Made by a program: the position numbers and the translations under genes. Positions 178 to 4,369 of a DNA stretch of 6,786 nucleotides are shown piece by piece (within the stretch, counting starts at the first letter, position 1; each line of letters opens with the position of its first letter). This DNA is from Bacteroidales bacterium. Lineage in GTDB: Bacteria; Bacteroidota; Bacteroidia; Bacteroidales; Dysgonomonadaceae. The notes under the pieces are model-generated. The model was not told the origin of the DNA. It saw only the letters and a program-made list of their open reading frames with translations, and searched no databases. Where the stretch lies: NCBI GenBank assembly GCA_012799155.1, contig JAAZLV010000077.1, positions 1-6,786 of the forward strand, read 5' to 3'.

Positions 178-951
178 TTACTGAATGTTTATGCGCACCT
201 CCGTCAAGAAGGCCTTCATTCGTTCGGAGTCTTTGGTTTCAATAATTGCCAGCAACTCCTTTAGTTTCTCCCGAATATTGATCAGCTGTCCCGGTGTATA
301 GGGATTGAAGAGGATCTCCGTGAGCAGGAAATCATCTTCCGAAAGCAGTCCCTGCGCAATCTGCATATGTTTCTTGAAGGTGGTGCCGGGCGCATCCTGG
401 TGCTTCATCACCGAGGCGAACACCAGTGTGGAAGCAAACGGAATGGAAAGCGAGTAAGCGATGGTCTCGTCATGCTCCTTGAAGGAGTATTCAAATACGT
501 TCAGCTTCAGGTGGCGATAGAGATCCCTGAAGAATACCTTTCCCAGGTGTGACGACTCGGATATGATGATGGCACTCTGGCTGCTCAAGTCGTTCAGACT
601 GGCAAAGGTAGGCCCGAACATGGGGTGTGTGGAAACATATGGGCGGGTGCGCTCCCGGTAGAACGCCTCCAGGCCAGTCTTCACTGAGGCGATATCGCTC
701 AGGATGCAGGTCTCGGGGAGATAGGGCAACACCGTCTCAAAAGCGGGAATGGTGTACTTGAGGGTGGCAGCGTTGATCACCAGCTCCGGTGCGAAGGCCT
801 CAACCTCTCGCGGATCGGTCATCCGCTGCGTGTTGTAAATGAACCGCAGCTTCTGTGGATTGGTATCGAGCACTGCCACCTCGTGGTCGAAGCTGAGCAC
901 GTCGGCAAAGAAGGAGCCCATCTTGCCGGCTCCAAGGATTAATATTTTCAT
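178..951 (-). CDS. tyrA: Prephenate dehydrogenase, last gene of the aromatic operon
   Basis: This 257-residue protein is predicted to oxidise and decarboxylate prephenate to 4-hydroxyphenylpyruvate, the tyrosine precursor, in the cytoplasm. The N-terminus is a Rossmann fold: a beta strand, then GAGKMG at residues 7-12, and an acidic residue (D29) ending the second strand, which suggests NAD preference. SDIASVKT (85-92) and HPMFGP (109-114) match the conserved TyrA substrate and cofactor region. H160-D161 and the following SLSIPFAS resemble the helical dimerisation-domain motif. No chorismate mutase or ACT domain is present, and the protein is slightly shorter than many monofunctional TyrA enzymes. 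The ATG at 951 is 17 nt past the DAHP synthase stop and has a purine-rich upstream sequence (AGGGAAGAG), so co-transcription is very likely. The pathway context makes this role more likely than arogenate dehydrogenase, but arogenate use cannot be excluded from sequence. Confidence 0.9.
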   Translation of the reverse strand: MKILILGAGKMGSFFADVLSFDHEVAVLDTNPQKLRFIYNTQRMTDPREVEAFAPELVINAATLKYTIPAFETVLPYLPETCILSDIASVKTGLEAFYRERTRPYVSTHPMFGPTFASLNDLSSQSAIIISESSHLGKVFFRDLYRHLKLNVFEYSFKEHDETIAYSLSIPFASTLVFASVMKHQDAPGTTFKKHMQIAQGLLSEDDFLLTEILFNPYTPGQLINIREKLKELLAIIETKDSERMKAFLTEVRINIQ

Positions 952-968
952 CTCTTCCCTTTCATCAG

Positions 969-2039
969 TTATTTCTTCGCTCTCTCCATCACCACCATCT
1001 GCTGACGTACCGACTCGGAGTGAATTGCCTCCAGCACCTTCTTCACGAAGTCGCCCGACATCTCCAACCGCTCACCCTGATAGGCACGGTCGGTCAGGAT
1101 CTGGTCGTAGCGCTGTGTCTGCAGGATGGGCATATCATGTTCCAGCTTGTACTGGCCTATCTCTCTCGACACACGCATGCGCTTAGCCAGAAGCTGCAAC
1201 AGGTCATTGTCAAGTTCGTCTATCTGGTCACGCAACACCGAGAGATCTTCAGTTGTCTGCACCGTATCACGGATTACGATGGTGTCTAGGATCTCCTTGA
1301 GTGCAGCCGGAGTGACTTGTTGAGCCTTGTCGCTCCACGCTTCGTCGGGGGAACAATGCGATTCGATGATCAATCCCGCGTAGTTGAGATCCATTGCCTG
1401 TTGACTGATCTTGAAGATCAGATTGCGGTCGCCGCCGATATGGCTTGGGTCGCAGATCATTGGAAGGGTGGGAAAACGTCGTTTCAGCTCAATGGGAATG
1501 TGCCATTGCGGCAGATTACGGTATATGGTCTTGTCGGTGGTGCTGAATCCACGGTGTATCACTCCCAGCTTGCGGATACCAGCATTGTAGAGTCGCTCCA
1601 GTGCACCGATCCAGAGCTCCAGGTCGGGATTCACAGGGTTTTTGATCAGGATGGGGATATCCACACCTTTGAGGGTATCTGCAATCTCCTGCACAGCAAA
1701 AGGGTTTGCAGCCGTGCGTGCTCCTATCCAAAGAATATCGACTCCAAACTTCAATGCCTCATAGACATGTTTCTCCGTAGCCACCTCGGTGGCCATATAC
1801 ATGCCAGTCTCTTTTTCCGCTTGCATCATCCATTTCAGTGCCGGACTACCGACTCCCTCAAAACCGCCTGGCTTGGTACGGGGTTTCCATACACCGGCGC
1901 GGTAAATTTTCACCCCCACAGCCGCCAGCTGGCGAGCAGTGGTCATCACCTGTTCTTCTGTCTCGGCACTGCAGGGTCCCGCAATCACCAGCGGTCTCTT
2001 CGCGTCAATGCCCGGCAATAAAATTGATTCGAATTCCAT
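969..2039 (-). CDS. Bifunctional 3-deoxy-7-phosphoheptulonate (DAHP) synthase / chorismate mutase
   Basis: This 356-residue protein joins two steps. Residues 1 to about 255 are a type I-beta (KDO8P-synthase-like) DAHP synthase, which condenses phosphoenolpyruvate with erythrose 4-phosphate. Residues about 265-350 are an AroQ-class chorismate mutase, which converts chorismate to prephenate. DAHP synthase signatures in order are GPCS (21-24), WKPRTKPGGFEG (51-62), GART (106-109), KNP (133-135), HRGF (162-165), CDPSHIGG (196-203) and IESHCSPDEAWSD (225-237), which cover the PEP, phosphate and metal ligands. In the mutase domain R270, R287 and K298 align with the E. coli active-site R11, R28 and K39. 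E. coli D48 and E52 align by eye with Q307 and Y311. C-terminal mutase fusions of this type are typical of Bacteroidetes, and prephenate feedback inhibition has been reported in relatives. The ATG has A-rich sequence before it and lies 90 nt after the aminotransferase stop, the widest gap in the operon. I saw no promoter or terminator in that gap. Confidence 0.94.
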   Translation of the reverse strand: MEFESILLPGIDAKRPLVIAGPCSAETEEQVMTTARQLAAVGVKIYRAGVWKPRTKPGGFEGVGSPALKWMMQAEKETGMYMATEVATEKHVYEALKFGVDILWIGARTAANPFAVQEIADTLKGVDIPILIKNPVNPDLELWIGALERLYNAGIRKLGVIHRGFSTTDKTIYRNLPQWHIPIELKRRFPTLPMICDPSHIGGDRNLIFKISQQAMDLNYAGLIIESHCSPDEAWSDKAQQVTPAALKEILDTIVIRDTVQTTEDLSVLRDQIDELDNDLLQLLAKRMRVSREIGQYKLEHDMPILQTQRYDQILTDRAYQGERLEMSGDFVKKVLEAIHSESVRQQMVVMERAKK

Positions 2040-2129: not shown

Positions 2130-3311
2130 TCAGCTATTCCCCAGATATTCCTCAATCCGCCTGTAAGCTTCCTGGATCTTCTCAACGGAGGCACCCAGCG
2201 AGATGCGGATAAAACGTTCACCATTGCTGCCGAAGATAAAGCCCGGGGTAAGAAATACACGCGCCTTTTCAAGCAGGTCATTCACAATCTTTTCACTACC
2301 CGACACCTCTGTCGGCAGCTTACCCCAGACGAACAATCCCACTTGCCGGGGATCGAAACTACAGCCAAGCAGCTGCATGATCTTCTCCGCCCAGTCGCGT
2401 CGTTCACGATAGACCCGGTTCATTCCGGCATGCCACTCATCACTGTTCGACAGTGCAGCCACCGTCGCCAGCTGCATCGGCTTGAACTGACCGCTGTCGA
2501 TGTTGCTCTTGGCCTTGAGTACCCACTGTACGAACTGTGTGTTGGATGCCAGGATGCCCATGCGCCATCCCGACATGTTGTGCGACTTGCTCAGGGAGTT
2601 GAGCTCGATGCATATCTCTTTTGCTCCCGGCACGGAGAGGATGCTCATCGGATGGTCGTTCAGGATAAAACTATAGGGGTTGTCGTGACAAATCACGATC
2701 TGATGCTTCTTGCCAAAGGCTACCAGTTTCTCGAACAGTTCTATAGTAGCATTGGCACCGGTAGGCATGTTCGGGTAGTTTACCCACATCAGCTTCACAC
2801 GACTCAAGTCCTTTTTCTCCAGAGCCTCGAAATCAGGTTCCCATCCCTTCTCCTCCAGCAGGTCATACTCCATCACCTCTGCCCGCAACAGTTGCGATAC
2901 GGATCGGTAAGTGGGATAACCGGGATTGGGGACCAGCACAGCATCTCCGAAGTTCAGGAAGGTCATCGAGACATGCAGGATCCCCTCCTTGGAGCCTATC
3001 AACGGCAATACCTCAGCAGGTGTCAGGGTGACGTCATAGATACGCTTGTACCAGTCGGCATATGCTTTACGCAACTCGGGTATGCCGGTATATGGCTGAT
3101 AAGCATGCACATCGGGCAGGCGGGCTGTATCGCAAAGCATGTCAATTGTCTCCTGCGACGGCATCCGATCTGGTGCTCCCACCGCCAGACTGATCACATT
3201 TTTACCTTCGGCATTCATACGGGCCACTTCAGCCAGCTTCACCGAGAAATAGTATTCTTCTATTGATTTGATATGTGCTGCAGGTTCAATCATTTTCATT
3301 GTAATTTTCAT
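2130..3311 (-). CDS. Class I/II PLP-dependent aminotransferase, probably aromatic or prephenate transaminase
   Basis: This 393-residue fold-type I aminotransferase lies between prephenate dehydratase and DAHP synthase. Visible active-site elements are GSKEG (106-110) for cofactor phosphate, NPGYPTY (129-135), NYPNMPTG (178-185), CHDNPYS (208-214) with D210 for the pyridine nitrogen and Y213, and the Schiff-base lysine K242 in SLSKSHNMSGWRMG (R250 nearby). R369 in FIRIS fits the alpha-carboxylate-binding arginine. By context it probably transaminates phenylpyruvate and 4-hydroxyphenylpyruvate to Phe and Tyr, or prephenate to arogenate. Substrate specificity is inference, since this subgroup also contains aspartate and LL-diaminopimelate aminotransferases. 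The annotated ATG at 3311 is 9 nt after the pheA stop. In-frame ATGs at 3299 and 3293 are possible alternatives, and the last gives an N-terminus (MIEPAAH) like that of related proteins. Confidence 0.87.
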   Translation of the reverse strand: MKITMKMIEPAAHIKSIEEYYFSVKLAEVARMNAEGKNVISLAVGAPDRMPSQETIDMLCDTARLPDVHAYQPYTGIPELRKAYADWYKRIYDVTLTPAEVLPLIGSKEGILHVSMTFLNFGDAVLVPNPGYPTYRSVSQLLRAEVMEYDLLEEKGWEPDFEALEKKDLSRVKLMWVNYPNMPTGANATIELFEKLVAFGKKHQIVICHDNPYSFILNDHPMSILSVPGAKEICIELNSLSKSHNMSGWRMGILASNTQFVQWVLKAKSNIDSGQFKPMQLATVAALSNSDEWHAGMNRVYRERRDWAEKIMQLLGCSFDPRQVGLFVWGKLPTEVSGSEKIVNDLLEKARVFLTPGFIFGSNGERFIRISLGASVEKIQEAYRRIEEYLGNS

Positions 3312-3320
3312 TTCATTCAG

Positions 3321-4169
3321 TTACTGTTCATCGGCATTCATCTCCTCCCTGTACTCACCCAACAACTTCAGATTGCTGATCAACGGAGTGATGGCATCGA
3401 TCGACTGTTGGTAGCGCTGATAATCGGTAAAGGTGAGATCGATATAAAACTGGTACTCCCACTCACTCCCGATGATGGGCAGCGACTGAATACGGGTCAG
3501 GTTGATATCATAAAATGAGAGCACCGACAACACCTTCGAGAGTGAACCTTCACTGTGTGGCAGGACAAACACCAGCGACGACTTGTTGATGTGATTATTT
3601 TTCTGTACCTCCCGCAGCATCTCCTCACGAGCCAGGATAAAGAAACGGGTGAAATTGCGTTTGTTCGTTTCAATTCCGTGGGCCAGGATCTCCAGTCCAT
3701 ACATCTCTGCTGCCAGCCGGCTACAGATGGTGGCAGTGCCCTTCATCTCCCGCTCACGAATCTCTTTTGCCGCGAGAGCGGTATCATCATGCTCTACGAT
3801 CTTCACCCCGGGTAATCTTTCCAGAAAATCCTCACACTGCATCAAGGCCATGGGGTGCGACATCACCTCACCAATTTCATCGATGGTGGTGCCGGGAAGG
3901 GCTGCCAAGGTATGTGTGATTCGAAGTTTATGTTCCCCTGCGATACGGAGATGATATTGTTTCAACAAATCATGATTGGGCAGAAGGCTTCCGGCGATCG
4001 TATTCTCAATGGCCATCACCCCTATCAGTTGCGGATCCTTCTCCGCTTCCTTGAAAATATCGCGGAATGTCTGGCAGGGAACAATCTCCAGCTCTTCACC
4101 CCTGAAATAATCGCGTGCGGCAATCTCATGATAGGCTCCCGGACCTCCTTGTATAGCAACTCTTTTCAT
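3321..4169 (-). CDS. pheA: Prephenate dehydratase with C-terminal ACT domain, first structural gene of the operon
   Basis: The protein (282 residues from the ATG at 4169) converts prephenate to phenylpyruvate. The frame stays open upstream to a TTG at 4181, but ATG gives MKRVAIQGGPGAYHEIAA, the usual start of the family, and has an A-rich sequence before it. Numbering from the ATG, the catalytic domain shows IENTIAGS (55-62), HPMALMQCEDFL (105-116) and the key NFTRFF (172-177), whose Thr-Arg-Phe is the dehydratase signature. An ACT domain fills about 198-275. Its GALV-like motif is GSLS (208-211), and its ESRP-like motif reads IQSLP (227-231), so the Glu and Arg are replaced. ACT domains here normally bind Phe and inhibit the enzyme. 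There is no chorismate mutase domain; that activity is fused to the DAHP synthase downstream. The gene follows a leader with an attenuator ending 28 nt before the start codon. Confidence 0.94.
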   Translation of the reverse strand: MKRVAIQGGPGAYHEIAARDYFRGEELEIVPCQTFRDIFKEAEKDPQLIGVMAIENTIAGSLLPNHDLLKQYHLRIAGEHKLRITHTLAALPGTTIDEIGEVMSHPMALMQCEDFLERLPGVKIVEHDDTALAAKEIREREMKGTATICSRLAAEMYGLEILAHGIETNKRNFTRFFILAREEMLREVQKNNHINKSSLVFVLPHSEGSLSKVLSVLSFYDINLTRIQSLPIIGSEWEYQFYIDLTFTDYQRYQQSIDAITPLISNLKLLGEYREEMNADEQ

Positions 4170-4197: not shown

Positions 4198-4230
4198 AAA
4201 AAAATCCCATCGTGTGATCGACAGGATTTT
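4198..4230 (-). terminator. Intrinsic terminator of the pheA leader (attenuator terminator)
   Basis: On the minus strand, AAAATCCTGTCG (4230-4219) pairs over 12 bp, including two G-U wobbles, with CGATGGGATTTT (4212-4201). The loop is ATCACA. The last four Ts of the 3' arm run into three more (4200-4198), giving a 7-T tract. A terminator between promoter and first gene, 28 nt before the pheA ATG, makes sense only as a conditional attenuator. Confidence 0.87.
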
Positions 4231-4283
4231 TGTTATCTGATATGACTTTTTTATTTCTTCTCATTTTACATAAAAATCCTGCC
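4220..4283 (-). promoter_or_regulatory. Antiterminator pairing that competes with the leader terminator
   Basis: GGCAGGATTTTT (4283-4272, minus strand) can pair over 12 bp, with one G-U, with AAAAATCCTGTC (4231-4220). The second segment covers 11 of the 12 bases of the terminator's 5' arm, so the two structures cannot coexist. The first segment begins one nucleotide after the leader-peptide stop codon. A ribosome sitting at that stop should cover most of it, while one stalled at or before codon 16 should leave it free. The 40-nt loop between the arms is A-rich with little obvious structure. Confidence 0.83.
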
Positions 4284-4284
4284 T

Positions 4285-4341
4285 TTACCTGCTAAAATAA
4301 AAGTAAAACCAGAAAGAATATGCAAATGTAGAACCGTTCAC
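4285..4341 (-). CDS. Aromatic-rich leader peptide of the Phe/Tyr operon (18 residues, GTG start)
   Basis: The frame from GTG (4341) to TAA (ending 4285) reads VNGSTFAYSFWFYFYFSR, with Met expected at the first position in vivo. It has five Phe, three Tyr and one Trp, and residues 10-16 are seven aromatic residues in a row. This composition would be very unlikely by chance in a frame placed exactly between a promoter and an attenuator. The closest upstream in-frame stop is a TGA five codons before the GTG, and no in-frame ATG exists, so GTG is the only plausible start. It has an A-rich upstream sequence (AAAAGATAACAAC). The peptide itself need have no function; its translation is the sensor. 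It plays the same role as E. coli pheL but is unrelated in sequence and mixes all three aromatic amino acids. Confidence 0.83.
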   Translation of the reverse strand: MNGSTFAYSFWFYFYFSR

Positions 4342-4369
4342 GTTGTTATCTTTTCATTATGATTGGGCA

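Follow-up and report, generated by a model that had tools for sequence, protein, structure and literature searches.

How is the synthesis of phenylalanine and tyrosine governed in a bacterium that makes both from a single operon? The minus strand of a 6,786-nucleotide stretch of Bacteroidales DNA (contig JAAZLV010000077.1 of assembly GCA_012799155.1, family Dysgonomonadaceae; hereafter the window, meaning the whole stretch) carries pheA, an aminotransferase gene, a fusion of 3-deoxy-D-arabino-heptulosonate 7-phosphate (DAHP) synthase with chorismate mutase, and tyrA, which together are a joint Phe and Tyr operon. Directly before pheA lies an element of 166 bases. We conclude from sequence comparison that this element very probably controls the Phe/Tyr operon by ribosome-mediated attenuation of transcription. 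Further, we consider it fairly likely that leader-peptide attenuation is ancestral and class-wide for Phe/Tyr synthesis in Bacteroidia, that its codons are retuned (to mixed, Phe-only or Tyr-only runs) as the operon splits, and that it has been doubled in series in several families.

A preliminary description of this DNA had claimed that every part of an attenuator is present, in the right order, on the minus strand between 4363 and 4198. On our reading of the sequence all of these parts are there, with a promoter just upstream (Table 1). The aromatic-codon leader peptide exists as described, and the antiterminator half-site does begin one base past its stop codon, where it covaries with arm 3. 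That arm is, as had been claimed, common to the antiterminator and the terminator. Beyond these parts we found a third pairing, the 1:2 protector, in which leader codons 6-8 pair with TATGTAAA right behind arm 2; an inner stem between the control codons and the stop region was also seen. A linker of 40 nt separates arm 2 from arm 3, the terminator has the hexaloop ATCACA between arms 3 and 4, and the window carries a single unit only. The -7 element, TACATTTG, was called against what we take to be the Bacteroidetes consensus. A simple scan for sigma-70 promoters and terminators listed neither the promoter nor the terminator of the element, probably due to the non-sigma-70 promoter and to a stem that consumes most of the U run. 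Such scans are uninformative for this phylum; support for the element rests on folding and comparison.

We propose that the element works as follows. RNA polymerase would start near 4363, the predicted transcript start, and a ribosome would follow on the leader. When charged tRNA-Phe and tRNA-Tyr are plentiful, the ribosome would reach the stop codon and cover arm 2; with arm 2 covered, the 3:4 hairpin would form and transcription would end near 4198. When Phe or Tyr is scarce, the ribosome would stall on the FWFYFYF codons, the 1:2 protector would be broken and arm 2 would be free. The 2:3 pairing could then form before arm 4 is made, allowing read-through into pheA and the aminotransferase, DAHP synthase-chorismate mutase and tyrA genes. 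Because the 1:2 pairing hides arm 2, the leader of the window should terminate when untranslated as well, which does not hold for every relative.

Table 1. Parts of the candidate attenuator and genes of the operon (window coordinates).
Feature	Position	Strand	Remarks
Whole element	4363..4198 (166 bases)	-	directly before pheA
-33 promoter element TTTG	4399-4396	-	
-7 promoter element TACATTTG, Bacteroidetes type	4377-4370	-	18-nt spacer to -33
Leader peptide open reading frame (ORF) VNGSTFAYSFWFYFYFSR	4341..4285	-	GTG start 4341; TAA stop 4287-4285
Control codons F W F Y F Y F (codons 10-16)	4314..4294	-	
Arm 1 TTTGCATA, within leader ORF (codons 6-8, F A Y)	4326-4319	-	partner 4272-4265
Arm 2, antiterminator 5' half GGCAGGATTTTT	4283-4272	-	one base past stop codon; partner arm 3
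Arm 2' TATGTAAA, partner of arm 1 (1:2 protector)	4272-4265	-	base 4272 common to arm 2
Arm 3 AAAAATCCTGTCG, common to antiterminator and terminator	4231-4219	-	
Arm 4 CGATGGGATTTTT, terminator 3' arm	4212-4200	-	13-bp stem
U run (seven T) of intrinsic terminator	4204-4198	-	
pheA, prephenate dehydratase (Pfam PDT)	3321..4169	-	ATG at 4169
Class I/II aminotransferase	2130..3311	-	
DAHP synthase-chorismate mutase fusion	969..2039	-	
tyrA-like prephenate dehydrogenase	178..951	-	PDH_N 29.2 bits, barely above 26.5 cut-off

Folding energies in the window are -16.0 kcal/mol for the antiterminator stretch (z -4.3) and -14.7 kcal/mol for the terminator stretch (z -4.5), and the fold of the whole leader has a z of -4.5; none of 200 shuffles did as well in any of the three cases. 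We then treated the ribosome as a block of 29 nt, an assumed footprint, and calculated the probability (P) of each hairpin with the block at different places on the window transcript. The model predicts the terminator (P 0.999) both without a ribosome and with a ribosome at the stop codon. With the A-site on aromatic codons 8-15, the antiterminator is predicted instead (P 0.91-1.00), and a stall at codon 6 would come too early, the terminator staying in place (0.999). Thus modeled, the geometry of the window fits a switch in which arm 2 is left free by a stall on the control codons and is covered once the ribosome arrives at the stop.

The preliminary description had proposed comparing leader frames and covarying arms across Bacteroidales, and this comparison came out in its favor. 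Relatives were gathered by a genome scan with pheA, the best 80 of 199 being used; the genera in their record titles include Proteiniphilum, Fermentimonas, Petrimonas, Seramator, Dysgonomonas, Paludibacter, Parabacteroides, Tannerella, Alistipes, Bacteroides and Prevotella. An aromatic leader lies at most 320 nt upstream of pheA in 78 of the 80; one of the exceptions, L027, is cut by the end of its contig (64 nt upstream). The promoter motif TAnnTTTG occurs no more than 90 nt upstream of the leader start in 74/76 loci (5.4 in mononucleotide shuffles), and TT(T)G stands 17-22 nt above it in 69 of the 76 (0.3 in mononucleotide shuffles).

The leaders themselves were compared in a MAFFT alignment of 79 rows, here called A1, from which L027 and L062 were left out. 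With few exceptions, the aromatic run ends in five codons that each encode F or Y. The window's W codon was considered as a general part of the sensor and rejected, since its position is mostly Y or F across the 79 leaders (Y 32, F 18, W 17, G 8, S 2, and others). Where a codon differs by one base between similar leaders, the difference is synonymous in 1127 of 2902 cases (39%, vs 14.5% expected), a count in which pairs of relatives enter repeatedly. The distance from the last aromatic codon to the core of arm 2 is 11-12 nt in 57/79 leaders and between 9 and 17 nt in 16 others; three of the remaining cases are pattern hits at 6 ahead of the arm and three are without a hit. The leader extends into arm 2 in some Parabacteroides, Bacteroides and Alistipes loci (e.g., ...SRVKAGVCM).

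All three helices are conserved as pairings in A1. Helix 1:2 has 90.7% of its cells paired, 45 cells changed on both sides and a covariation score of 0.249; the corresponding values are 90.6%, 63 and 0.279 for helix 2:3, and 98.5%, 105 and 0.457 for helix 3:4. The paired share and the covariation score of each exceed those of all 500 shuffles, and the scores exceed those of all slid versions. The arms also fit their own partners best: arms 2 and 3 of the same locus beat the median swap in 108/109 loci of the genome draw described below and in 59/77 loci of the set derived from A1, and 0/2000 permutations reach the mean in either set. An instructive example within helix 1:2 is the Ala/Thr codon of the leader (GCA/ACA), whose first base lies opposite a C or T just past arm 2; the combination is GC in 42 leaders, AU in 22, GU in 10 and something else in 5 (n=79). 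On a pheA tree of 78 of the 79 rows, the two sides of this pair change 8 and 7 times; of 5 independent pairs, an average of 3.3 show the partner going the same way and 0.0 the opposite way.

How far does the element reach? Of 39 genomes of the genus searched with a covariance model built from A1, 34 contain it, among them all 33 that bear pheA, where it lies directly upstream of the gene; five of the six genomes lacking pheA lack the element as well, and in the remaining one it sits where a contig ends. Across the order the same model finds it in 61/198 genomes at E 0.001 under strict filters, some of the matches being weak and away from pheA. We also applied a uniform detector to the 420 nt before pheA, calling a full unit where a leader (at least 5 aromatics in 8 codons in the genome draws) had a terminator behind it and an antiterminator of at least 6 bp. 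The draw from Bacteroidales began with 79 pheA genomes besides the source, of which G415 (contig end), G301, G342 and G448 (partial pheA) and G434 (contig start) were left out; that from the rest of the class began with 66, of which 8 (distant matches) were left out. A leader was detected in 66/74 Bacteroidales genomes and a full unit in 57/74; the respective figures are 54/58 and 50/58 for the rest of the class, and 5/23 and 3/23 for genomes outside it, hand-picked from 189 with pheA. No full unit appeared in shuffles (0/740, 0/580 and 0/230 for the order, class and outside sets; 0/1550 in total). By these sequence criteria the element is much wider than the preliminary description claimed. 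Besides these counts, we note that one genome, G528, has two pheA copies (contigs C251 and C269; 78% and 59% identical to that of the window), each with its own element; this may reflect two strains, as the assembly is 4% contaminated.

If the leader reads codons, its composition should follow the product of the genes behind it. A search for tyrA at 74 pheA loci placed it within 10 kb in 61 and elsewhere in 12, and did not find it in 1. Leaders of at least 6 aromatics stand before pheA in 58/61 tyrA-linked loci and in 6/12 loci with tyrA elsewhere. Three of these 6 are Phe-only, without Tyr (RFFTHFFFFF, NNSFFFFFFR and FRFFFFFAFFF), vs none of the 58 linked leaders (Fisher p 0.0005, relatedness ignored). 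Separate tyrA clusters have units in 7/11 loci, with nine Tyr-only or Tyr-rich leaders (such as NTYYYYYQ, SKYYYYYFY and TYYYNYYR); one of the 11, L286, has only about 135 nt of upstream sequence. The Tyr share of ten tyrA-side leaders averages 0.79 vs 0.42 for linked pheA leaders (p 7e-6), or 0.76 with one value per locus (p 8e-5), relatedness being ignored in both comparisons. In five of these tyrA-cluster loci (L288, L289, L293, L301 and L303) the unit, apart from pheA and with a Tyr-only or Tyr-dominated leader, stands before an ORF similar to the aminotransferase of the window, ahead of tyrA. Among eight hand-picked model matches away from pheA, three lie before an aminotransferase and three before tyrA (three of the proteins were checked against Pfam); the other two of the eight, both weak (L274 and L275), have no leader. 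In most cases, then, the control codons agree with the amino acid that the genes make. Neither a stretch that is simply rich in U nor an unspecific arrest peptide would show such agreement, which points to codon-sensing, ribosome-mediated attenuation. Two further genomes may be mentioned here, G436 (L127) and G402 (L131), in which pheA has no detectable leader and an aminotransferase elsewhere in the genome has one.

Some relatives carry the unit twice. Applied to 235 upstream regions, a strict detector found a complete pair of serial units in 10 and one unit in 164. The strict tandems stand before pheA (L117, L118, L128, L143, L145, L162, L173, L175, L179 and L084), a looser reading adds L113, L115, L134 and L167, and Tyr-rich tandems precede the tyrA clusters of L301 and L303. 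A second unit behind a first terminator arose in 0/2000 shuffles. The tandem Phe/Tyr attenuators before pheA mostly differ in their arm sequences, and arms pair better with their own partner (12.5) than with that of the other unit (8.9) on average, though not at every locus (nine comparable of 13 tried). Both units of a tandem, placed as they are before biosynthetic genes, appear to sense the same amino acids.

The ribosome model was also run on the relatives, in a set of 77 from A1 (omitting L072 and L079, whose terminators the detector missed) and in the order and class draws. A stall before arm 4 is made is predicted to permit the antiterminator in 77/77, 57/57 and 50/50 loci, respectively, and a ribosome at the stop to block it in 75/77, 48/57 and 34/50.

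Several results weigh against the attenuator as we describe it. Not every pheA has a leader: L062 among the relatives, 8/74 genomes of the order draw and 4/58 of the rest of the class are without one. The codon match is likewise imperfect. Three of the 6 leaders with tyrA elsewhere still hold Tyr (one perhaps owing to a contig break), one of the ten tyrA-side leaders (L272, upstream of the G333 tyrA) is rich in Phe instead (Y 3, F 5), and aminotransferase-side leaders are mixed (Tyr share 0.56-0.57). As to covariation, the number of helix 2:3 pairs changed on both sides is matched by 186/500 shuffles, and its pair types by 50/500. Tree sign tests are non-significant for every base pair among those listed, because there are too few independent pairs, and pair 24:78 is mixed. 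The folding model raises its own difficulties. With the ribosome on the last Phe codon of the window (16), two runs with different transcript ends give the terminator a P of 0.93 or 0.46. Without a ribosome, the 1:2 protector is predicted to hide arm 2 in just 35/77, 18/57 and 5/50 loci; the protector is therefore, by this model, optional. Once a finished transcript is equilibrated, stalling would remove the terminator in only 32/77, 20/59 and 16/50 loci. With so few flips at equilibrium, the mechanism in most relatives needs a kinetic order of folding. The modeled switch is thus equilibrium-clean in the window and likely kinetic in most relatives.

What else could the leader be doing? The aromatic peptide might arrest its own ribosome as a nascent chain, in the manner of TnaC, and so respond to aromatic amino acids in free form, or to some other ligand, instead of uncharged tRNA at its codons. 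The Bacteroidales peptide (F-A/T-Y...FYFYF) is indeed conserved to a degree that a simple string of control codons would not require. The conserved F-A/T-Y, however, is explained by RNA pairing of arm 1; across the class the peptide sequence varies while its aromatic density is kept, and its Phe-only, Tyr-only and mixed versions largely track the downstream genes. We consider such arrest improbable. Slightly less probable again is that the terminated leader acts mainly in trans, as a small RNA or peptide, with attenuation secondary. The element should yield a short terminated transcript, and a trans role of a leader peptide has been reported for peTrpL (PMC7298713). Neither the alternative pairing of three helices, nor the spacing, nor the agreement between codons and downstream genes would follow from a trans function; it could coexist with attenuation.

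The remaining explanations dispense with the leader peptide. Another sensor, be it a T-box, a riboswitch or an RNA-binding protein, might use the terminator, the aromatic frame being an accident of U-rich sequence. The stretch is U-rich, and shuffles do yield leaders of at least 5 aromatics in 8 in 68/740 and 64/580 cases. Leaders with at least 7 in 8, however, occur in 58/74 and 34/58 real loci vs 0/1320 shuffles, and the frame shows the synonymous excess given above. Rfam offers no leader family or T-box that fits the window at E <= 1, or 12 of the relatives at the gathering score. A sensor of this kind is accordingly very improbable in our estimation. An unregulated, constitutively leaky terminator seems the least credible of all: it would leave the antiterminator, and its covariation, without a reason to persist. 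Because the upstream neighbor of the pheA leader, a POT-family transporter, lies on the plus strand, the terminator is also unlikely to be that of the upstream gene. A ribosome-mediated attenuator thus stays our strongly preferred reading.

The classical attenuators of E. coli, pheL-pheA and trpL/hisL, have a leader peptide with control codons and arms 1-4 that pair as 2:3 or 3:4, and the Tyr side of E. coli metabolism is controlled by a repressor. The window element resembles these attenuators in having its stop codon near arm 2 and in sitting upstream of a biosynthetic operon. It differs from them in its single run of Phe and Tyr codons, its joint operon with DAHP synthase, its A/U-rich stems and its Bacteroidetes promoter. 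Closer to home is Bacteroid-trp (Rfam RF01692; PMC2864571), a Bacteroidetes cis-regulatory element before trp genes. Both are thus Bacteroidetes cis-regulators before amino-acid genes. Bacteroid-trp gave no match in the window at E <= 1 and none was found in the source genome; it occurs in 14 of 41 relatives searched, 9 above the cut-off. At eight loci its leader was read; all of them have WW or WWW and precede an ORF that we take, from its sequence, to be TrpB-like, and the seven read in the window's genus contain NGYWWR. Bacteroid-trp thus differs from the window element in control codons, sequence and gene; at one of its sites (G297 C26) the pheA covariance model gives a weak score (E 3e-4).

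The preliminary description knew of no experimental account for this operon type in Bacteroidales and cautioned that predictions might exist. That caution was apt, as Bacteroid-trp is an established family and the available text of PMC9723704 flags a structured 5' element before pheA in Flavobacterium psychrophilum, without an Rfam hit and conserved in Flavobacteriaceae. The same text speaks of strong clues for leader-peptide attenuation before amino-acid operons. That element is probably a flavobacterial cousin of ours; unlike the present analysis, this text gives no arms, codons, class-wide survey or link to Bacteroidales. Among the matches listed in our literature search, none describes a pheA attenuator in Bacteroidales; the work on attenuation in bacteria by Lopatovskaya et al. 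(2010), cited in PMC4833913, may contain such a prediction. A differential RNA sequencing study of B. thetaiotaomicron remarks in general terms on small ORFs reminiscent of leader peptides (PMC7366714), the word phenylalanine not being found in its main text. Leader peptides are named in Proteobacteria, Actinobacteria and Firmicutes in the accessible part of PMC2965389, where the term bacteroid was not found, and the accessible parts of PMC6429828 and PMC4974804 have nothing on a pheA element. The uORFC-13-1 motif before aroF of Acholeplasma, as given in an excerpt of PMC8632094, likewise has Phe codon(s) in a short ORF and a terminator before an aromatic pathway gene, in another phylum and with another sequence and gene. 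Serial attenuators with two leader ORFs are presented in an extract of PMC3641672 as a singular example, Salmonella mgtCBR, where the signals differ; the tandems of our relatives are similarly serial and appear to answer to the same signal.

Classical attenuation was already known; what may surprise a specialist is the reach across a whole class, the retuning of the codons and the tandems that appear to share one signal. If correct, our reading supplies a testable switch for aromatic synthesis in Bacteroidia, a class for which we found little on amino-acid regulation, and makes leader-peptide attenuation a main control system well beyond the classical groups. The natural swaps among Phe-only, Tyr-only and mixed leaders are a ready-made experiment in codon sensing, and same-signal tandems raise the question of how steep the response is. 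Rfam yielded no match, and alignment A1 could serve as the seed of a new family.

A few minor observations concern the source locus and its relatives. The source genome (G000) is 85% complete, and its closest named relatives by pheA are Proteiniphilum metagenome-assembled genomes (MAGs). A second, partial tyrA in the source assembly (G000:C442:3719-4162) is 96% identical to the window tyrA across 148 residues, perhaps reflecting a mixture of strains in the MAG. A weak Rfam match to CRISPR-DR8 (22 bits vs a cut-off of 39) at 2837-2873 (+) of the window, within the aminotransferase gene, is taken as chance. Last, L257:318-505 (+) holds a Cys/Met-rich leader ORF, MNKYFIQYNDNTCTTCCMTMCCCMAMCMVRNHIVLDRGK, and an intrinsic terminator, and the same leader peptide is present in L256. 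The L257 leader precedes a protein without a Pfam match and then a TonB-dependent receptor, and the element is possibly a Cys/Met attenuator.
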